Of a stretch of 32,002 bases of DNA, positions 5,539 to 27,761 are shown piece after piece. A program made the translations under genes and the position numbers. Source of the DNA: a virus; IMG/VR virus record IMGVR_UViG_3300044701_002190, positions 1-32,002 of that record. One strand, 5' to 3'. Each line of letters starts with the position of its first letter. Within the stretch, counting starts at the first letter, position 1. The notes under the pieces are model-generated. The model saw only the letters and a program-made list of their open reading frames with translations. It made no database searches and was not told where the DNA came from.

Positions 5539-6777
5539 CTACTGGTCGCCGCGGTCGTCCGGCGTGTCATCGCGATCACTGTCGCGATCGTCATCGGGCG
5601 CTTCCATGTTCATCGGCACGCGCCTCTCGTCGCCGCCCGGGTACGGGTTCATATCCTCGAGCGCACGGATCTCGTTTGGCGACAGAGCGCCGACGTTGAA
5701 GAGCTTGGTGTAGAAGTCGGCCCTTGCCTGGCTGGCCCCGCGCATGAGCGCATTCGGGAAGAACTTCCACGCCAGTCCGCCCGCACGTTCTTCGGGCGAC
5801 AGCAGCGCCATTGATGCCGACTTCTCGACCCGCCGATACCACGGACCCATCGTGTGCACGACGTGCGCCAAGAACATCTGCTCGGCCGACGCATACGTCG
5901 TCGTGTTGTTGGCGTAACCGACCATGATCGGCATCACGCGAAAGTGCCGGCAGACTTCCTCAACCTGGAACGCGCGGGCCTCGAGGAACTGTGCCTCGAC
6001 GTTGCTGCCGCTCATCGCCAAGAACTTCATTCCGTTGCTCATCACGGCGACGCGGCCCGCGTTCTCGCTGCCGCCCTGGCTGGCTTGCCAGGACTCGCGC
6101 AGTTGCGTTCGCTGGTCGGCGGTCAGCACCTGGTCCGTCGTCAGAATGCCGCTCGGCCTCGCGCCATTGCGGAAAGTGCTTGAGCCGTGCTTCTCGGCTG
6201 CCAGCGACAGACCAATGGCCTCGCGCGCGAGATGCACGCCATCCAGTCCGGTGTAGCCGTTCCAGGACGGCCCGCGGATATGCCACACCTCGGATGCCGG
6301 AAGCGTGATCGACGCGCCGTCGTCCGGCTTGATGCGATAGGTCAGCGTCCACCCGTCACGCTCGACCGTGACATGCCGCGGCTCGAACGGCAGCAACTCA
6401 GTTGCGCGCCCGTTGACCCGGTTGACCCAGACGTACGCATTGCCGGCCAGCACCAGGTGCATGCCGATCTGGTCGAAGAACTCGACCGCTGTCTGAAACT
6501 CGGACGGTGCAGACTCAAGCAGTTCGTACCGCGGATCGTCCATCGCGGCTTCGTGCATCAGTCCGTCGGACCGCATCAGCCGGCACGGCACCTGCGACAT
6601 GCCCTCGGCAATCACTCGCGCGCAGGCCAGCGCAACCGAGCATTGCAGCGCCGTCTGATAGTTGACGGTGATTCCGCTCGACGACGTCGCCCCGCCGTAG
6701 ATGTCGCGCAGCAGGCTTAACGGATCGGACGCCTTGCGCTGCGGCAGCAGCCGGCGCCACCAACTGTCGGTCGCCAC
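5539..6777 (-). CDS. HK97-family portal protein
   Basis: A 412-residue protein matching the HK97 portal pattern: 'GITVNYQTALQCSVALACARVIAEGMSQVPCRL', 'LAGNAYVWVNR', 'EVCRHFRVMPIMVGY' and 'TKLFNVGALSPNEIRALEDMNPYPGGDERRVP'. Its last 20 residues are strongly acidic (DDDRDSDRDD...). The GTG start overlaps the last base of the terminase TAG stop. The protein forms the dodecameric DNA channel at one capsid vertex. A 9-base gap separates it from the protease gene. Confidence 0.94.
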   Translation of the reverse strand: MATDSWWRRLLPQRKASDPLSLLRDIYGGATSSSGITVNYQTALQCSVALACARVIAEGMSQVPCRLMRSDGLMHEAAMDDPRYELLESAPSEFQTAVEFFDQIGMHLVLAGNAYVWVNRVNGRATELLPFEPRHVTVERDGWTLTYRIKPDDGASITLPASEVWHIRGPSWNGYTGLDGVHLAREAIGLSLAAEKHGSSTFRNGARPSGILTTDQVLTADQRTQLRESWQASQGGSENAGRVAVMSNGMKFLAMSGSNVEAQFLEARAFQVEEVCRHFRVMPIMVGYANNTTTYASAEQMFLAHVVHTMGPWYRRVEKSASMALLSPEERAGGLAWKFFPNALMRGASQARADFYTKLFNVGALSPNEIRALEDMNPYPGGDERRVPMNMEAPDDDRDSDRDDTPDDRGDQ

Positions 6778-8282
6778 TACCAGACCTCGGCAAAAACGGG
6801 CGGCGCAACTTCCGCGGGCGCAGCCGATCCGGCCGCCATTGCCAGCGCGACCATGCCGTCGATGCGTCCGGTAGATTTCATCTTGTCCAGTTTCCTATTC
6901 CCAGCAGGGTCCGCCGTGACGACCGCGTTAGCCGCGCACATCGTCAGCACAGGGTGCCCGCCGTGACTGATTCGTTTGCCGAGCAGCGCCCGCTCGGTTG
7001 CGTCCAACGCCGGGGCCATGCTTTGGAACCCTTGGCCGAACGGCTTCATCAACGACAACAACTCGTCGCTTGCGCCTTGGCGCTGCATCGCGCCCTTGAA
7101 CTGATCGATGCGCCACCTGTCGAACGACAGCACCGCGACGTCCCATTCCGAGCACAACTCGCACACCATCGCGGCGACGTGGTCGTAGTCAATCGACGAG
7201 CCGGGCGTGGTCAGTAGGTAGCCTTCGCGGACCCACTGGTCATACGGCGCGCGGTCGCGTCGGGCGCGGTCGTGCAGCCCATCTGCCGGCGTCCAGAACC
7301 ACGCGCGGACTTGAATCGACTCGTCGCCCTGCCACCAGGCGACTAGCGCCGTCAGGTCGGACACCGACGACAGGTCTAGGCCAAGAGTCACGGGCGCGCC
7401 GTTGTAGTCCTCGAGCGTGCCAATGTTCTCTTGCCACAGCGCCCGCGAAATAAACGGCGAGCGCGTCTCAATCCTCTGATTGAGTACGAGGTTTCGATAG
7501 CTGCCCTCGCGGGACTTCATCCGCTTCGCCTCGGCCGCTTGCTGGCGGACCTCGTCGCGGTTCATGAACTCATCGAACGCGGGATTCGCCGCTCGGATTG
7601 ACTCGTCCGAAAACGGGTCGTCATCGATCGGCGCGGAGTACAGGAACAACCGCGTACGCTCGTCGCCGCTCGCCTTTGCGTCATCGATCAGCACCGACAG
7701 CAGGTCGGCGTCGTTCGGTGCCTGCGTCGAAATCACGATCGACAGCGGCTCGACCTGCGCGGCCGACGCCGTCTCGAGCGCCTCGAACAGTTCCGAGCGC
7801 GGCCCGCGCACTTGGCCTAGCTCGTCATGCACGACGAACACGGGCGACAGGCCGTAGGCGGTCGACGCGTCGGCCGACAGCGCGCGGTACAGCGTGCCCA
7901 GTTCAGCGCACGCCAACTGCTTCGCGGTGTCGCGGATGGTCACGTAACGCGACAGGCCCGGCGACATGCGGACGACTTTCGCCGCGAGTGCAAACAGAAT
8001 CGACGCCTGCTCGCGCGACTGCGCGGCCGAGAACAACTGCGAATTGCGCCGCGCCTCTGGGCCCGCTAGGTGAAGCAAAAGCAAAAATGCCGACAGCGAA
8101 GTCTTCGCGTTTTTACGTCCGAACGAGACGATCGCCCGCCGGGTGCCGGCCGGGTTGTCGTAGATACCGCAGACGATCTCGCGTTGGAAAGGGCGCAACT
8201 CGACGGGCTGGCCGACTAGCCGGCCCTCGGGGACGCGGCAATTGCGTTCGATCCAGGCGCAGTTGCGCTCGCCGCGCGTCAA
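6777..8282 (-). CDS. Terminase large subunit (TTG start)
   Basis: A 501-residue packaging ATPase/nuclease. The Walker A-like motif is GRKNAKT at residues 55-61 and Walker B is VFVVHDE at 148-154. The nuclease domain shows 'TLGLDLSSVSDLTALV' and a C-terminal 'GRIDGMVALAMA' block. I place the start at a TTG whose last two bases overlap the small-subunit TGA stop (TTGA), giving a family-typical length. An ATG at 8612 is in frame, but the extra 110 residues would lie over the small-subunit gene and look like out-of-frame translation. The enzyme cuts concatemers and pumps DNA through the portal. Confidence 0.93.
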   Translation of the reverse strand: MTRGERNCAWIERNCRVPEGRLVGQPVELRPFQREIVCGIYDNPAGTRRAIVSFGRKNAKTSLSAFLLLLHLAGPEARRNSQLFSAAQSREQASILFALAAKVVRMSPGLSRYVTIRDTAKQLACAELGTLYRALSADASTAYGLSPVFVVHDELGQVRGPRSELFEALETASAAQVEPLSIVISTQAPNDADLLSVLIDDAKASGDERTRLFLYSAPIDDDPFSDESIRAANPAFDEFMNRDEVRQQAAEAKRMKSREGSYRNLVLNQRIETRSPFISRALWQENIGTLEDYNGAPVTLGLDLSSVSDLTALVAWWQGDESIQVRAWFWTPADGLHDRARRDRAPYDQWVREGYLLTTPGSSIDYDHVAAMVCELCSEWDVAVLSFDRWRIDQFKGAMQRQGASDELLSLMKPFGQGFQSMAPALDATERALLGKRISHGGHPVLTMCAANAVVTADPAGNRKLDKMKSTGRIDGMVALAMAAGSAAPAEVAPPVFAEVW

Positions 8283-8719
8283 CCCGCGACTTGCTGGTCG
8301 TCGTCCCACGGCCTGCGTCCGCCGCCGCTGCTCGCGGCCTTCGTTGCCGCCGACTTCTCGGTGTAGCGGGCCGACGGGCAGAGCCGCAGCTTCACCGCCA
8401 TCTGCGCCATCGCCGACGCCTGGCTCGTCAGGACTTGGTGGTGCGGGTTCACGTACTCGCGGCCCTTGTCGTCCGTCAACGTCATGCCGCGCGCTTCCAT
8501 CTCGGCAGCGGCTTTCTTGTAGAACGTCGCCGCGACGCAGTAGGCCGCAAGCAGCGGCACGTCGCCGGGCCGGAAGTAATCGGCCGGCAGCGAGTCGACA
8601 ATCGCACGCCATTCCGCCGCCTGGTCAGCCGACAGGTGCGACGGCGGCATCAGCCGGTCGTCCGACATTGGCACGACGACCGCCAGCGCGGACAGCGATT
8701 TACGGCCTCGAGCGCCCAT
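8279..8719 (-). CDS. Terminase small subunit, P27 family
   Basis: A 146-residue protein with the P27-type pattern: 'PPSHLSADQAAEWRAIVDSLPADYFRPGDVPLLAAYCVAATFYKKAAAEMEARG', 'GREYVNPHHQVLTSQASAMAQMAVKLRLCPSAR'. It recognises the packaging site on phage DNA and loads the large subunit. It lies between an HNH endonuclease gene and the large subunit, as in HK97-like phages. The start is the ATG after 'gaacac'. The last 25 residues are polar and poorly structured. Confidence 0.92.
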   Translation of the reverse strand: MGARGRKSLSALAVVVPMSDDRLMPPSHLSADQAAEWRAIVDSLPADYFRPGDVPLLAAYCVAATFYKKAAAEMEARGMTLTDDKGREYVNPHHQVLTSQASAMAQMAVKLRLCPSARYTEKSAATKAASSGGGRRPWDDDQQVAG

Positions 8720-17603: not shown

Positions 17604-18395
17604 ATGTCCGCAGTACCCGCAACCATTGGCTCGCAGCCGCCGTCGCTGCTGGCAAAGCTTGCCGATCGGTTTAGCGTCGACCCCGCCAAGATGATGGGCA
17701 CGCTCAAGGCGACGGCCTTTAAGGGCGAAGTCAGCAACGAGCAACTGATGGCGCTGCTGATTGTGGCCGACCAATACGGCCTGAACCCGTTCACCAAGGA
17801 AATCTACGCATTCCCGGACAAGGGCGGCGTTGTGCCGGTCGTCGGGGTCGATGGCTGGGCGCGCATCATCAACCAGCACCCCGCCTTCGACGGCATGGAC
17901 TACGCGGACGGCCCGACCGGGAAAGACGGGCTACCCGAATGGATCGAGTGCGCCATTTACCGGCGCGACCGCTCGCACCCGGTGAAGGTGCGCGAGTACA
18001 TGGCCGAGTGCAAGCGCGGCACGCAGCCGTGGAACAGCCACCCGCGCCGGATGCTGCGGCACAAGTCGACGATTCAAGCGGCCCGCATGGCGTTTGGCTT
18101 CGTCGGCATCTATGACGAAGACGAGGCGCAGCGCATCGTCGGCGGCGGAATGAAGGACATCACGCCCGCGCGCCAGCCGTCGGCCGTCGCCGCCATCAAC
18201 AGGCAGATTGCGCCGCCCGTGGTCGAGTCGCGCGCACCGTCGTTCGATGACGTGGCCGCGATGATTACCGAAGCGGCGACCGCCGACGCGCTGGCCGAGA
18301 TCCGCAACATCGTGCCCAGCGTTGAGTCCGACGACGACCGCGAAGAACTTGAGGGTCTGCTTGCCGTGCGCGAGGCGGAGCTGGCCTCGAAATGA
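17604..18395 (+). CDS. bet: Bet/RecT-type single-strand annealing protein
   Basis: A 263-residue protein closely matching lambda Bet: 'VSNEQLMALLIVADQYGLNPFTKEIYAFPDKGGVVPVVGVDGWARIINQHPAFDGMDY', then 'WIECAIYRRDRSHPVKVREYMAECKR' and 'RRMLRHKSTIQAARMAFGFVGIYDEDEAQRI'. It anneals complementary single strands during phage recombination and works with the upstream exonuclease. AGGAG lies 6 bases before the ATG. The last 70 residues are a less conserved tail, likely the partner-binding part. Confidence 0.93.
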   Translation: MSAVPATIGSQPPSLLAKLADRFSVDPAKMMGTLKATAFKGEVSNEQLMALLIVADQYGLNPFTKEIYAFPDKGGVVPVVGVDGWARIINQHPAFDGMDYADGPTGKDGLPEWIECAIYRRDRSHPVKVREYMAECKRGTQPWNSHPRRMLRHKSTIQAARMAFGFVGIYDEDEAQRIVGGGMKDITPARQPSAVAAINRQIAPPVVESRAPSFDDVAAMITEAATADALAEIRNIVPSVESDDDREELEGLLAVREAELASK

Positions 18396-19354: not shown

Positions 19355-19584
19355 ACCGCGCTGAATACTTGGTACGCGCCCGCGAGCTAGCCCCGCGCGG
19401 CGACGCCTTGCCGCATACCAAACTGTCCGAAGCCGACGTGCGCGAGATCCGCAGGCTCGCCCAGGTGCGCGAGCAGGCGCGGGCGCGGATCAACGCGGAA
19501 CTGAGCAACGCGGCGATTGCGGCGCGGTATGGCGTGCATCAGCGGACGGTTGAGAAGGTTTTGTCGTGGGAGCGGGTGCGGTGA
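19351..19584 (+). CDS. Small helix-turn-helix protein
   Basis: A 77-residue protein. After 'MNRAEYLVRARELAPRGDALPHTKLSEADVREIRRL' it ends with 'LSNAAIAARYGVHQRTVEKVLSWERVR', a clear helix-turn-helix of the kind seen near HNH or methyltransferase genes. ATGA and GTGA overlaps couple it to the genes on both sides. It may control the methyltransferase. Confidence 0.7.
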   Translation: MNRAEYLVRARELAPRGDALPHTKLSEADVREIRRLAQVREQARARINAELSNAAIAARYGVHQRTVEKVLSWERVR

Positions 19585-20381
19585 ATGTGCTGGACTTGTT
19601 CAGCGGTATCGGCGGCTTCTCGCTCGGTTTGGAGCGTGCCGGCATGACCACCGTCGCGTTCTGCGAGGTCGATCCGTTTTGCCGCCGCGTGCTCGCGAAC
19701 CATTGGCCCGAGGTGCCGATCTATGAGGATGTACGAGAACTGGACGCTTCCCGGCTTCGAGGTGACGGGATCGATCGAATCGATGTCGTCACCGGCGGAT
19801 ACCCGTGCCAGCCCTTCAGCCACGCGGGCAAAAGGGGCGGCACCGCTGACCCGCGCCACCTCTGGCCGGCAATGCGCCGAATTGTTGGCGAAGTCCGACC
19901 CGCTTGGGTCATTGCTGAGAACGTTGCTGGTCACATCTCCTTGGGCCTCGACCAAGTGCTTGCTGACCTGGAAACCGACGGCTACTCCGGGCGGGCGATT
20001 GTTGTTCCGGCTGCAGCCGTCGATGCCCCGCACATCCGGCAGCGAGTCTGGATCGTGGCTCGCGACAGCGACAGCGACAGCGAATCAGCTTGCGCCGTCG
20101 ATGCGCAAGCACAAGGGCTGCGCGGCGATATGGCCGACGCCGACGGTGAACGACAGCAGGAACGTCACGTTGCCGCCGAGTCAGATCAAGCACGACAACA
20201 TCCCGGGCGCAATGCTGCGGGCTGGCGAGCAGCCAGGTGGCCGGCTGAACCCGGAATTCGTCGAGTGGTTAATGGGCTACACGACGGGATGGACGGACAT
20301 CGGCTCCGAGCCCTCGGCAACGCCGTCGTCCCGCAGATCCCCGAAATGATCGGCCGCGCAATTATGGCGCACGCAGCATGA
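19581..20381 (+). CDS. C5 cytosine DNA methyltransferase
   Basis: A 266-residue protein with the motifs in order: I VLDLFSGIGGFSLGLERAG (3-21), IV with the catalytic Cys76 in GGYPCQPFSHAGK, VI ENV (113-115), VIII QRVWIVA (154-160), and IX-X RLRALGNAVVPQIPEMIGRAI (241-261). The variable region between VIII and IX is only about 80 residues, so the target domain is short. The GTG start overlaps the previous TGA. It probably protects phage DNA from host restriction; no partner nuclease is seen. A second open frame is nested inside the gene. Confidence 0.92.
   Translation: MNVLDLFSGIGGFSLGLERAGMTTVAFCEVDPFCRRVLANHWPEVPIYEDVRELDASRLRGDGIDRIDVVTGGYPCQPFSHAGKRGGTADPRHLWPAMRRIVGEVRPAWVIAENVAGHISLGLDQVLADLETDGYSGRAIVVPAAAVDAPHIRQRVWIVARDSDSDSESACAVDAQAQGLRGDMADADGERQQERHVAAESDQARQHPGRNAAGWRAARWPAEPGIRRVVNGLHDGMDGHRLRALGNAVVPQIPEMIGRAIMAHAA
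19723..20349 (+). CDS. Nested +1-frame ORF inside the methyltransferase gene
   Basis: A 208-codon open frame lies fully within the methyltransferase gene, shifted by one base. It has its own ATG (another two codons later) and GAGGTG ending 7 bases before it. The product includes 'GRLLFRLQPSMPRTSG', 'IWPTPTVNDSRN' and 'LNPEFVEWLMGYTTGWTDIG'. I recall the last two patterns from annotated phage proteins linked to cytosine methyltransferases. It may be a real overlapping gene, or its look may follow from conserved motifs in the main frame. Function unknown. Confidence 0.4.
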   Translation: MRMYENWTLPGFEVTGSIESMSSPADTRASPSATRAKGAAPLTRATSGRQCAELLAKSDPLGSLLRTLLVTSPWASTKCLLTWKPTATPGGRLLFRLQPSMPRTSGSESGSWLATATATANQLAPSMRKHKGCAAIWPTPTVNDSRNVTLPPSQIKHDNIPGAMLRAGEQPGGRLNPEFVEWLMGYTTGWTDIGSEPSATPSSRRSPK

Positions 20382-21410: not shown

Positions 21411-21656
21411 ATGAACCTGCTCACGACTGCATACCTGCTGGAACGCTACGGCCCGCGCTTGGGAATGGACCAGATTGCCGAGGTGCTTGGCATGTCCACC
21501 GGCACGCTGCACAACCGTGTGTATCGCGGCCAGATAGAACTGGCGACCTACATGGACGGCGGCAAGCGATACGCCGACGTTAGGGATTTGGCTGCGTACC
21601 TCGACCAGATGCGAGGGCGTGCAACTGCTCGGGCCGCAGATTCGTGTATCTCTTGA
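21411..21656 (+). CDS. HTH protein, excisionase or PrtN-like candidate
   Basis: An 81-residue protein: 'MNLLTTAYLLERYGPRLGMDQIAEVLGMSTGTLHNRVYRGQIELATYMDGGKRYADVRDLAAYLDQM'. The layout resembles pyocin activator PrtN and excisionase-type winged helices. It lies beside the integrase gene and its last 77 bases overlap the integrase 3' end on the other strand. GAGG lies upstream of the ATG. An excisionase role is favoured by position; a transcription activator is equally possible. Confidence 0.6.
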   Translation: MNLLTTAYLLERYGPRLGMDQIAEVLGMSTGTLHNRVYRGQIELATYMDGGKRYADVRDLAAYLDQMRGRATARAADSCIS

Positions 21657-22608
21657 GTTGCGACCAGCTACGGTGGCCGCTGACCAGCGCCACCTGTTCA
21701 ATGGTGTATCCCTGCTCGAACAGCAGCGAGATGCCGTGATGCCGCAAATCGTGCAGATGAAGATCAGTGACGCCCGCTATCCGGCAGGCCAGCAGGAAGG
21801 CGTCGCTGATCCACTCTGGCGACACCGGGAAGATGCGGTCGTCGTCGCGCGGCTGGCGCTCTATGATGGCGAGCGCGTCGCCCAGCAGCGGGATCGTTTC
21901 GTGATTGCCGGCCTTCTGGCGCGGGTGCTTGCGGTCTCGAATCGTAATCAGCCGCTTGTCGGCGTCTAGGTCGCGCCACTGCACCCGCGCGATCTCCCCG
22001 CGCCGCATGCACGTCGCGATGGCGAAGTCGATGATGTCGCGCAGCAGCGGCTCGGCCCGATCGCGCACCGCCTGCAGTTCTTCCGGCGTCGGCCTGCGGT
22101 CGCGGGACTGCCCCGGCCCGATCAGCCCCAGGTGCTCCAGCAGCGGGCGCGCCGAACCGACTGGGTCGCCCCAAGTCGCGTGCAGGCTGATGCTCGCGTA
22201 CTTGAGCACGGTCCCGAGCTTGGATACTTCCATGTTGACCGTGTACGGCCCCGCCCCGTCCTCGTGGCGGCGCTTGGCAAAGGTCGCCAGCCGCTGCGGC
22301 GTCAGCGCGGTGATCTGCGTGTCGCCCAGGTCGGTGTCGAGATGCGCGAGCATGTAATGCTCGTTGGACGACCCCGAGATGGGGCGCTTGCCGCCGTCTC
22401 GCAGCTTGCGATACGCGCCGATTGCATCGCCCACTGTCGCGCCGCCCGGCTTGGTAGCTTCGCGCCCTGCGTCGATGTCGGCCTCGGCCTGCCGCGCCCA
22501 GCGGTCGGCCTCCTTGCGCGTCGGGAACGTCTTGCACAGCGCTTTGATACCCTTGCGCCGTATGAGCACGCGGTAGCTGCCCGCTGCTGTCTTGATGATG
22601 CTCGCCAC
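21580..22608 (-). CDS. int: Tyrosine integrase
   Basis: A 342-residue protein. The N-terminal arm-binding domain (ASIIKTAAGSYRVLIRRKG...FPTRKEADRWARQAE) is followed by a SAM-like core-binding domain from about 55 to 160. Catalytic residues are visible: Arg202 in TCMRRGEIARVQW, a Lys near 227-232, His286 and Arg289 in LHDLRHHG, His312 in SGHRSW and Tyr321 in LKRYTNL. It recombines attP with the host attB. It starts with GTG after GGGGGA. Probable attP lies just upstream, between the gene and the lysis terminator. Confidence 0.95.
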   Translation of the reverse strand: MASIIKTAAGSYRVLIRRKGIKALCKTFPTRKEADRWARQAEADIDAGREATKPGGATVGDAIGAYRKLRDGGKRPISGSSNEHYMLAHLDTDLGDTQITALTPQRLATFAKRRHEDGAGPYTVNMEVSKLGTVLKYASISLHATWGDPVGSARPLLEHLGLIGPGQSRDRRPTPEELQAVRDRAEPLLRDIIDFAIATCMRRGEIARVQWRDLDADKRLITIRDRKHPRQKAGNHETIPLLGDALAIIERQPRDDDRIFPVSPEWISDAFLLACRIAGVTDLHLHDLRHHGISLLFEQGYTIEQVALVSGHRSWSQLKRYTNLRPEQLHALASGRGTQPNP

Positions 22609-24209: not shown

Positions 24210-24424
24210 TGATCCTCGGGCGCTTTCGTGGCCGGCTGGCCGCTGGTCAGTAACCGCGCCCAGCGGTGCACGAGATAGCCGATCTGCAGCGCGATATAGA
24301 CGAGCGTCGCGATCAGGACGATGTCGGACAGCGAGACGCCCGCAACTGATAGGCCGGCAACGGCCACCGGCGGCGCCGCCTTGATCGTCTCGGTAATAAC
24401 CTCGGCTCTGGTCTGTATGGTCAT
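24206..24424 (-). CDS. Holin candidate
   Basis: A 72-residue protein. A charged N-terminus (TIQTRAEVITETIK) is followed by hydrophobic segments 'APPVAVAGLSVAGVSLSDIVLIATLVYIALQIGYLV' that can form two short membrane helices, then a polar tail. It directly precedes the endolysin gene with an ATGA overlap. The size, topology and place fit a class II holin of the kind seen in GC-rich siphophages. The ATG overlaps the previous stop. Confidence 0.75.
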   Translation of the reverse strand: MTIQTRAEVITETIKAAPPVAVAGLSVAGVSLSDIVLIATLVYIALQIGYLVHRWARLLTSGQPATKAPEDQ

Positions 24425-26394
24425 TTTCTGATCCATCGCGCCCACGGCGAGACGCGCTTCGTCACAACCGCAGCCTCGGCGATGCTGATGGTCAGCACCC
24501 GAGACGACGCACCGTAATCGTTTGTTGCGGTTGCCGTGATCTGCCATGTCCCGGCCGACGTCGGCGTGCCGCTAATTGTCGCGCCGGATCGCGTCAGCCC
24601 GGGCGGCAGCGCGCCCATCGTCGCCCAGGTGATTGGGCTTGCGCCCGTCGCGGCGAGCGTTTGGCTGTATGCGGTTCCGACAGTCCCAGATGCAAGCGAC
24701 GCCGTCGTGACTGACGGCGCAGCCCCGACCGTTATTGTCAGCTCTTGCGTGTCATTGCCGGTCGAATTTTCCGCTCGCAGCGTAAACGTCTGCGACGTGG
24801 CGCCGGCAATTGGCGTCCCGGTGATGGTCCCAAGCGCCACAGCAAGCCCGAGCCCAGTCGGCAGCGCGCCAGACTGAATCGCCCAGGTAATCGGTGCCGA
24901 CCCGGTGGCCGCGAGCGTCTGCGAGTACGGCACGCCAGGCACCGCTGCGGGCAGTGACGTCGTCGTGATTGTGGGCGCGACCGCGCCGCCCGATTCAGCC
25001 AGCACGACAGCGGCGGCGGCCCATGAGTCAGAGAAACTCAGTGCCCAAGTTGGGTCATAGTCGCCGGTCGTGGCGACGCGCCGCTCAATCGACGCCAACG
25101 CCGCCGTGCCAGATCGCGTGCGGACCTGCGTCCAGTTGGCGACCGCGGACCAGGCGGCGGTCGAGTTGAGCGAGGTCGCGACCGCCGTAATTAGCGCGGG
25201 CGCGGATGCAACGGATGCGAGGTTGACGGACGGCGCGTTGCTTGCGCCATTGGCCCCGGTGGGCGTGCCAATGACCGGCGTCACCACGTCGACCTCGTCG
25301 ACTTCTTCGACGCTGATGCTGATCCAGTTGCTGGCCGCGTTAGGCGTCGCCGTGACAGTAAACGGCGCGACTGCATCCGACGGCACGCGCAGCGTCCAAA
25401 TGCCGGCCCACATCTGCGCGCCCGCGCCTGTACCTTGCTGAAGAATGCGCTGCGTGTATGTGTTCGGACCAAGCGGCGAGCCGACGCGCTGGTTGTCGGT
25501 AATCGCGATTGTCGTGGCCGTCTGCATGAAACCCGAGACCTTGACGACGAGTACGTCGTCGGGCTCGGGGGCGTTAGGCAAGGTAACGGAAACGCTCGCC
25601 CCAGACTCAACGCTTGCGATGGCCGACTGCACGGTGCCGATGCCGGGCGCGGCCGGCACCGTGTCAGGCATCGTCCACGCGCCCGACAGCGTCGGCGCCG
25701 AGCCGCTCGCGTAGGTCGGCGCGTCGGCCGAATAGACCGGGTTCGAGCGCGCGACGCCTGCGTAGTCAAGATTCGACCAGGTGTCGGCGTAGGCGGCGTT
25801 CGAGACGTTGCTCGACAGCGCGGCGCTGATCGACCCGCCGTCGAAGTAGTTAGCGCAGATCAGATTAGTCGTGCTGACCGCTGCCTGTGACGCGAACTCG
25901 GCCTCGACCTCGGCATCCGACAGTGCGCGGGACCAGAGTTTCACGTCGGCGATCTTGCCCCGGAACCACGTCCCGAGCGTCGTGTCGGCCGCGCTGATGT
26001 GGATGTTGTCTAGCGTGTCGTTGTATTGCGGATTCGGTGCGGTGATTGCGCTGACCGAGCCGCCGGGCGGCTGAATCAGACCGCGCAACTCGGACTGATC
26101 CGATCCGTTGACCGTGCCAACCAGCGCGACGCTGACCCACACGCCGGTTGCACTAGTGCCGATCGTGCGGCTGTTCGTGGCGTTGCGATAGTTGACGCCG
26201 ACGCGCCATCCGGTCGCACTGCCCGCCCAATACAGCTCATGATATTGGCTGCTGGTCGTCTCCAGTGAGATCGCAGCGCCGGCCGTGTCGCTGTCTAGGT
26301 ACGCCTTGCACGTAATCGTGAACGCGCGATGGCTGATCGCGTTGTTGCTGTCGATCCCGCAGACGTGCGTATTGCTTGTAAATTGGACGCTCAT
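24421..26394 (-). CDS. Tail-associated surface protein with LamG-like and two Ig-like (He_PIG) domains
   Basis: A 657-residue protein. Residues 1-170 form a LamG/concanavalin-like domain (FTITCKAYLDSDTAGAAISL...KIADVKLWSRALSDAEVEAEF). The middle, about 255-480, is a beta-rich region of unknown type. Two putative Ig domains (He_PIG) follow, each with 'G..YSQTLAATG..PITW...GALP.GL....ITGTP'. The protein ends with a basic WARWIRK. It lies between the polysaccharide-lyase-like tail protein and the holin. Host surface binding is inferred. It starts within the end of the preceding gene (ATGA). Confidence 0.7.
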   Translation of the reverse strand: MSVQFTSNTHVCGIDSNNAISHRAFTITCKAYLDSDTAGAAISLETTSSQYHELYWAGSATGWRVGVNYRNATNSRTIGTSATGVWVSVALVGTVNGSDQSELRGLIQPPGGSVSAITAPNPQYNDTLDNIHISAADTTLGTWFRGKIADVKLWSRALSDAEVEAEFASQAAVSTTNLICANYFDGGSISAALSSNVSNAAYADTWSNLDYAGVARSNPVYSADAPTYASGSAPTLSGAWTMPDTVPAAPGIGTVQSAIASVESGASVSVTLPNAPEPDDVLVVKVSGFMQTATTIAITDNQRVGSPLGPNTYTQRILQQGTGAGAQMWAGIWTLRVPSDAVAPFTVTATPNAASNWISISVEEVDEVDVVTPVIGTPTGANGASNAPSVNLASVASAPALITAVATSLNSTAAWSAVANWTQVRTRSGTAALASIERRVATTGDYDPTWALSFSDSWAAAAVVLAESGGAVAPTITTTSLPAAVPGVPYSQTLAATGSAPITWAIQSGALPTGLGLAVALGTITGTPIAGATSQTFTLRAENSTGNDTQELTITVGAAPSVTTASLASGTVGTAYSQTLAATGASPITWATMGALPPGLTRSGATISGTPTSAGTWQITATATNDYGASSRVLTISIAEAAVVTKRVSPWARWIRK

Positions 26395-27761
26395 TGCCGA
26401 TCCAGCAGAAGTGAGTGCATCGCGTCGGCCGTGATGGTCGGCGTGCCCGGCTCATCGCGGAACGCATACATGCCGGTCGCCCACATCGTTTTCCGTGTGT
26501 CGAGATCCCAGCGGTAGACGCCCAGCTTCAGGAAGCAACTGTTAGGGTCCATTCCGACGTAGCCAAACGGCTCGTCCGCTGTCGCGGTTTTGTTCACGAC
26601 CTGCGTCAGCGCGCCGGTTCCGATGGCCCGCCAAAGCTGCACGAACGGCCCCGAAGCCAGCGAGCGCGACACCTTGAAACGAATAACGAAGTGCTGCCAC
26701 GCGGACGGCAACGAAATTGTTTCGCTAGTCCACAGGTCGGTCGAGTCCTTCGCTGCGCCAGATGTGTATTGCCCCCAAATCCGAAACGTCAGCGAGTCGC
26801 TGGTTGTCGACCACATTAGCTCAATTGGTGAGCGGTTGTAACCTCCGCCGGACTCGTGAAGATCGAAAATTGTGATGCCCAGCCCGACGCTCGTGTTAGT
26901 TGGATCGGTCGTGAAATCCGAATCCATGCGGATGGAGAACGCGACCCAGTAGGTGACGTCGTCGGTTACCGCGTAGCAGAGATACTGCGACCTCTGCGTG
27001 CCGCGCCAATCCAAATATCGGCTGTCGATGCGGTGAAGATGGGCGAGCTTCGCGGCGTTGGTCGGGTGCGTGACCCGAGCGATGGTGTACTCGCCGGCGG
27101 GCGCGGGGTCGCCCGGATTGCGGCTTACGGCAAGCACGCCAGGCTCGGGAAACTCCGTGATCGGGCGGGGGTTGACCCAAACGTCATTAACCTGCATGTA
27201 AGGATAGGTACTAGCATGCTGGCCCTGTTGCTCCGGCGTCTGCGCCCACGGAATCGCCGGGTCGATCCACGCGAACATCCGAGAATCAGTGACCTGCGGA
27301 TACGCCAAACCGCCCCCACCACCGCCCCCGCCCGTGTCGAGCGTCGGGCCGGTAATCACAATCGTGCTTATCAGCAGATTCCCGTCTGCTGCGAGGTCGT
27401 CAGTGAGCAGCGCCTCGCCGCCGCCGCCCGTTTTGGTGAGCGTCACGGTGATATACACGCTGCCCGGATCGGCACGATTTGCAACCGTCAGCGTCCACGC
27501 ACCCGAGTCGATGTCCGCGTCCGCGATTGACTCCTGCGTCACCGGCAGCGGCACCACAAGCGCCGATTCGGTCAGCGTCAGCAGCCCTACCGGCCCGCCG
27601 CTCCACACGATGACGCCCTCCCGACGAATCGTGAGCAGCGGTGATGCCCCAAGCGCGTCGCGCCAGACCGTCAGGTAAGCGAGACGCTTGTTGCCGTTGG
27701 TCGCGGCCGTCGCCGCCGCCATCGCATCGCGCTGGGTGGCGTCCGAGTAAGTAATGGTCAT
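26391..27761 (-). CDS. Tail protein with polysaccharide-lyase-like domain (depolymerase candidate)
   Basis: A 456-residue protein. Residues 1-135 form a tail-attachment-type domain. A run of eight glycines at about 144-151 is a hinge. The C-terminal 300 residues resemble heparin-lyase/PL jelly-roll enzymes: 'YWVAFSIRMDSDF', 'PIELMWST', 'SAWQHFVIRFKVSRSLASGPFVQLWRAIG' and 'CFLKLGVYRWDLDTRKTMWATGMYAF', where 'KlGvYr' is the best mark. It would digest host capsule or exopolysaccharide. Catalytic residues are not identified, so it may only bind sugar. Confidence 0.6.
   Translation of the reverse strand: MTITYSDATQRDAMAAATAATNGNKRLAYLTVWRDALGASPLLTIRREGVIVWSGGPVGLLTLTESALVVPLPVTQESIADADIDSGAWTLTVANRADPGSVYITVTLTKTGGGGEALLTDDLAADGNLLISTIVITGPTLDTGGGGGGGGLAYPQVTDSRMFAWIDPAIPWAQTPEQQGQHASTYPYMQVNDVWVNPRPITEFPEPGVLAVSRNPGDPAPAGEYTIARVTHPTNAAKLAHLHRIDSRYLDWRGTQRSQYLCYAVTDDVTYWVAFSIRMDSDFTTDPTNTSVGLGITIFDLHESGGGYNRSPIELMWSTTSDSLTFRIWGQYTSGAAKDSTDLWTSETISLPSAWQHFVIRFKVSRSLASGPFVQLWRAIGTGALTQVVNKTATADEPFGYVGMDPNSCFLKLGVYRWDLDTRKTMWATGMYAFRDEPGTPTITADAMHSLLLDRQ

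Follow-up and report, generated by a model that had tools for sequence, protein, structure and literature searches.

The locus and its two reading frames

The window analysed here is the whole of a 32 kb virus record (IMG/VR record IMGVR_UViG_3300044701_002190, positions 1 to 32,002). As read on its plus strand, an ORF for a C5-cytosine DNA methyltransferase, here called alpha, occupies positions 19566-20381 (PF00145, E = 3e-40; phrog_363, E = 8e-79), and a second ORF, here called beta, is nested inside it in frame +1. The longest alpha ORF begins at the GTG at 19566. Judging from the sequence, the GTG at 19581 is the likelier start codon, and it overlaps with the stop codon of the preceding frame (TGA, 19582-19584). 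At the other end, the alpha stop codon is overlapped by the ATG (20378) of the next frame. The beta ORF runs on the same strand from an ATG at 19723 to a TGA at 20349 and encodes 208 amino acids (phrog_1008, E = 2e-27). The original prediction had pointed to this 208-codon frame and to a ribosome site of its own, and both were found at the claimed positions. The Shine-Dalgarno sequence GAGGTG lies at 19710-19715 on the plus strand, 7 nucleotides ahead of the ATG. The two peptides quoted in that prediction are also encoded by the nested frame, WPTPTVNDS as beta residues 137-145 (20131-20157) and LNPEFVEWLMGYTTGWTDIG as beta residues 175-194 (20245-20304).

As for the other genes of the window, a RecT recombinase gene (17604-18395) lies upstream of the methyltransferase gene, and a tyrosine integrase gene (21580-22608, minus strand) lies just downstream. 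The gene for the terminase large subunit (6777-8612, minus strand) is found further left. The minus-strand proteins encoded at 24421-27761 have Ig-like and laminin-G-like domains and a weak match to a polysaccharide lyase; they are probably virion or receptor-binding parts.

The outer frame and its motifs

Alpha has the features of a C5-cytosine DNA methyltransferase (PF00145), namely motifs I, IV (PCQ), VI (ENV), VIII, and X together with a Rossmann-type catalytic domain. All these motifs are on the plus strand. Motif I, DLFSGIGG (19593-19616), is the SAM-binding motif and lies ahead of the overlap with beta. Motif IV, GGYPCQPFS (19794-19820), contains the catalytic Cys, and its P80, C81, and Q82 are invariant in alignment A2. 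In motif VI, AENVAG (19914-19931), E118 is invariant, and N119 and V120 are nearly invariant. Motif VIII, IRQRVWIVA (20034-20060), ends the well-folded catalytic domain, while motif X, LRALGNAVVPQ (20304-20336), is again in frame 0. Motif IX was not found in the stretch between motifs VIII and X (20061-20303), which is predicted to be disordered. In the +1 frame, the same stretch encodes the variable WPTP part of beta and a motif IX.

The structural comparison gave a similar picture. Rows from annotated phage records were left out of the AF2 alignments. The AF2 model of alpha has a pLDDT of 81 and matches M.HaeIII and M.HhaI in Foldseek (E of about 1e-14). It shows a confident M.HhaI/M.HaeIII catalytic-domain fold up to about residue 170 and is confident again at the motif X helix; disorder is predicted for residues 176-241 (blocks with a pLDDT of about 43-65). 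At the profile level, alpha positions 6-170 match M.HhaI positions 11-178 (E = 2e-39). It had been claimed that the main frame keeps all methyltransferase motifs. This holds for motifs I, IV, VI, VIII, and X, but motif IX was not found there and sits in the nested frame instead. Alpha is not a single-chain C5-methyltransferase in the sense of having motif IX between motifs VIII and X in one chain. The absence of motif IX from the main frame makes sense of the nested arrangement.

Openness and conservation of the nested frame

Is the nested frame a real gene? Relatives of the locus were gathered twice, with beta as the query and then with alpha as the query, because a bias from the beta query was to be avoided. 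After incomplete copies and copies more than 80% identical had been dropped, 112 alpha genes with a GC content of 42-69% remained as the test set. The window itself has an open +1 run of 233 codons, a length reached in 24 of 500 synonymous shuffles of alpha; thus, a single sequence with 64% GC is no proof of a nested gene. Across the 112 homologues, the longest +1 open run is never shorter than 154 codons and its median length is 237 codons, and the corresponding median in the +2 frame is 55. Synonymous shuffles give a +1 run of 112 codons on average. The real run was significantly long (p <= 0.01) for 92 of the 112 genes in the +1 frame and for none of them in the +2 frame. A chance open frame in GC-rich DNA is ruled out by this comparison of homologues, although the window by itself does not exclude it. 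Among the loci found with alpha alone, the +1 frame was always open, and an intact methyltransferase gene with frequent +1 stops was not encountered.

The translation of the +1 frame was then scored with hold-out HMMs, whose profiles were built from half of the betas and applied to the remaining half. The real translation scored higher than all 100 synonymous shuffles in every one of the 112 genes, with a mean of 198 bits for the real frames versus 82 bits for the shuffled ones. Since the shuffled frames still reach 82 bits, part of the similarity among beta sequences is a by-product of frame 0.

Base conservation follows the same boundaries. At conserved fourfold-degenerate codons in pairs of 50-70% identity, the third-base identity is 0.28-0.37 ahead of beta versus 0.53-0.60 inside it. 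Between the window and its nearest relative, L010, fourfold third bases are identical at 7 of 21 sites before beta versus 47 of 65 sites inside. Inside the overlap, alpha codon position 3 is more conserved and position 1, which is position 3 of beta, is less conserved. Such a move of variation from alpha position 3 to position 1 is expected if a second frame is read. The pair shows purifying selection in both frames, as is required of an overlapping gene pair.

The start signals are also enriched. A Shine-Dalgarno sequence of at least 5 bases, followed by a start codon and at least 100 open codons, occurs in 58 of the 112 homologues versus 1.65 expected. The chosen beta start codon is ATG in 91 of 110 cases and lies at a median of 170 nucleotides into alpha; a Shine-Dalgarno sequence is absent in 7 of the 110. 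Taken together, the openness, the shuffles, the hold-out HMMs, the third bases, and the start signals establish dual coding computationally, that is, a real and conserved nested +1 gene with protein-level constraint in both frames. The suspicion that one stretch of DNA encodes two conserved proteins was well founded in this respect: both frames are conserved, beta has a Shine-Dalgarno sequence and a start codon of its own, and its homologues are annotated in several phages.

The nested protein and motif IX

The beta protein is conserved from about residue 20 onward. Its conserved N-terminal half (SGRxC...PxGSLxKM...STxCxLTWKxxxTPxxRLLFQLxPS; 19861-20034, plus strand) overlaps with alpha motifs VI-VIII, and AF2 places helices within residues 51-76 and a hairpin at residues 80-100. 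However, when beta is modelled by itself, the AF2 prediction is poor (pLDDT 62, pTM 0.29), and Foldseek returned no fold match for it; thus, no structural claim is made for beta. By sequence, no PDB entry and no Pfam family was matched by the beta profile.

The conserved C-terminus of beta resembles motif IX of ordinary C5-methyltransferases. In the window, the motif reads RLNPEFVEWLMGYTTGWTDIG (20242-20304, plus strand), the family consensus being GxLNPEWVEWLMGYPxGWTDL, and the counterparts in two other loci are RLTPRECARLMGF (L252) and LTPEECEQLNGFPKGWTE (L292). The identity of the motif depends on a comparison of 20 residues, for which the controls are as follows. The profile of the beta C-terminus finds its best place at motif IX in 16 of 35 canonical enzymes and at another place in the other 19. 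Column-shuffled profiles (500 in number) reach at most 9 of 35, and mostly 0 or 1. Other windows of beta are placed at motif IX in at most 2 of the 35 enzymes, except for two overlapping windows, and the frame-0 protein of the same DNA has its best place there in 2 of 35. An earlier and smaller scan gave a weaker result, with 4 of 11 canonical enzymes, a number that 3 of 1000 shuffles reached. On the DNA, motifs VIII, IX, and X follow one another as in a normal methyltransferase gene, with motif IX in the other frame. The distance from the first codon of motif IX to the GN of motif X is 24.7 codons, similar to the 29 residues seen in an alignment of two canonical single-chain enzymes.

The window copy departs from its family at a few positions. 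Beta has a T at the nearly invariant P187, so that MGYTTGW stands in place of the family MGYPxGW. The base change behind T187 also affects alpha, where histidine replaces a conserved proline (NGxPxR), and the window alpha has two extra residues (GH) directly before motif X. Judged by its sequence, this copy of the alpha/beta pair may be drifting.

Geometry across phages and prophages

The loci were scanned with separate profiles for the alpha N-terminal part, the beta N-terminal part, the beta motif IX, and the alpha motif X. In 239 of about 251 loci, these four segments lie in frames 0, +1, +1, and 0, respectively. Nine of the remaining loci are partial or short of a segment match; they include contigs that end early, one locus without the beta N-terminal part, and one without the alpha N-terminal part. 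Two further loci are rearranged. No standalone beta gene was found among the approximately 251 loci scanned.

The nested geometry recurs in an E. coli prophage, in coliphage K1ind1, in Salmonella epsilon15, and in mycobacteriophage, Burkholderia, and Xanthomonas sequences, and the N15/epsilon15-like group shares it. When E. coli genomes were searched with the window gene, no matches were obtained. A search of E. coli genomes with an Edwardsiella phage gene revealed relatives in 68 genomes, often beside a VRR-NUC gene. In the prophage of E. coli ETEC H10407 (L312, 1496-2509), where the methyltransferase is annotated as one protein, the nested +1 frame is present.

Two loci show different arrangements. 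In L193 (3760-5059), the alpha ORF does not extend to a motif X but ends behind motif VIII, and the beta frame contains motif X downstream of motif IX. This could be a real variant or a frameshift or sequencing error. As it reads, it looks as if two chains share one set of parts. In L041 (1715-2658), the reading frame of the alpha N-terminal part leads on into a motif IX, a different frame holds motif X, and beta ends in a second, degraded segment resembling motif IX.

A probable methyltransferase of two chains

Very probably, alpha and beta are two chains of a single DNA (cytosine-5) methyltransferase that depend on each other, both encoded by the same stretch of DNA with beta nested in alpha. 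Alpha, translated in frame 0, would provide the SAM-binding catalytic domain with motifs I-VIII and the helix of motif X. Beta, translated in frame +1, would begin at its own Shine-Dalgarno sequence and ATG inside alpha and would give motif IX in trans, probably adding other parts of the small DNA-binding domain. It is likely that both chains are made and bind to each other and that both are required for activity. Cytosine methylation by the alpha/beta heterodimer may be directed at a specific site of phage DNA, with beta as the possible carrier of target recognition. The role would be anti-restriction, most simply the protection of phage DNA from host restriction.

Alternatively, beta may be a real overlapping gene whose product is unrelated to the methyltransferase and, for example, regulates the enzyme or acts on the host. 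The N-terminal half of beta has no recognisable homology to solved methyltransferases, and the beta model lacks any fold match, as such a product might. However, it is beta in which motif IX was found, and alpha in which it was not. In addition, no beta was seen apart from alpha in the loci examined, motif X accompanies motif IX in the beta frame of L193, and M.EcoHK31I is a precedent for a motif IX chain. An unrelated function is thus unlikely.

It had also been suggested that the +1 frame yields a frameshifted product. If the frame were read only through ribosomal frameshifting from alpha, a fusion of the alpha N-terminal part and the beta C-terminal part with motif IX would be made. The order of the motifs on the DNA, with motif VIII in frame 0, motif IX in frame +1, and motif X in frame 0 again, would suit this, as would the L041 ORF that runs from the alpha N-terminal part into motif IX in frame. 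Yet the conservation of beta from about residue 20 extends well to the 5′ side of any useful shift site, over DNA that would never be read in +1 by a shift after motif VIII. The strongly enriched start signals of beta also speak against such a product, and the fusion would be devoid of motif X. Frameshifting is therefore an unlikely explanation, somewhat less likely than an unrelated function. Finally, the reading that GC content and a conserved frame-0 protein leave the +1 frame open as a by-product, without a second protein, is hardly credible, since the shuffles that match the window alone and the 82 bits of shuffled frames are outweighed by the 112 of 112 genes that exceed all shuffles, an effect present at 42% GC too, by the third-base conservation and start-signal enrichment, and by a +2 frame that shows nothing.

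Comparison with known enzymes and annotations

A methyltransferase of two chains would not be without parallel. In M.EcoHK31I, the gene of the large chain also encodes the small chain, in a different reading frame, and the nesting of one chain in another frame is shared by the pair found here. By the published motif partition, this E. coli enzyme (alpha/beta C5, YGGCCR) resembles the present pair, as its large chain has motifs I-VIII and X and a separate small polypeptide has motif IX (PMC3404938). On the other hand, M.EcoHK31I belongs to a restriction-modification system, unlike the pair described here. A predicted TRD is also attributed to its large chain; the alpha stretch between motifs VIII and X is, by contrast, predicted to be disordered. 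M.AquI, a cyanobacterial C5 enzyme (CYCGRG), similarly consists of two subunits sharing one set of C5-methyltransferase motifs, with motifs IX and X in the small subunit (PMC3404938). In contrast, the window and 239 loci have motif X in alpha, in frame 0, and are not of the M.AquI type; the partition in L193 resembles that of M.AquI. The canonical single-chain enzymes M.HhaI and M.HaeIII share their fold with the alpha model but have motifs VIII, IX, and X in one frame, whereas motif IX is in frame +1 here.

The annotation of the inner ORF is uneven. It is annotated in some Paenibacillus phage and coliphage genomes, as an "internal gene" or an "Mte8-like protein". The internal genes of the Paenibacillus larvae phages (Shelly g55/g56 and Lily g62/g63) and the Mte8-like ORFs of K1ind1 and fTaEco01 are homologous nested pairs, or pairs of the same geometry, deposited as two overlapping CDSs. 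The inner gene is given no function or motif IX assignment in these records. In many homologous records, for example those of epsilon15 and the E. coli ETEC H10407 prophage, alpha is the only one of the two genes listed. PHROGs assigns the two frames to different "DNA methyltransferase" families, 363 and 1008. No published description of a phage-wide nested pair was found in the literature searched, subscription journals being outside its reach. Since a two-chain split with motif IX apart is already known from M.EcoHK31I, what is notable here is the breadth of the arrangement in phages and its uneven annotation.

In prokaryotes, claims of long overlapping genes on one strand often meet with doubt. 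In the present case, several independent tests concur over more than 100 divergent loci, and a concrete function can be proposed for the inner gene. There is about an even chance that obligate heterodimers make up a large class among the C5-methyltransferases of phages and prophages, whose members are usually annotated as one protein each; their small-domain subunit, with target recognition included, would be overprinted in the +1 frame. The overlap would then be ancient and stable, spanning phages whose hosts are Gram-negative, Gram-positive, and mycobacterial, and one variable stretch of DNA would serve as a linker in one chain and as a recognition part in the other. If the inner chain is missing, phage cytosine methyltransferases annotated and cloned as a single gene may lack activity or be misread. 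The evolution of overlapping genes would also find a natural test in a phage enzyme with a recognition region that is possibly read in two frames.
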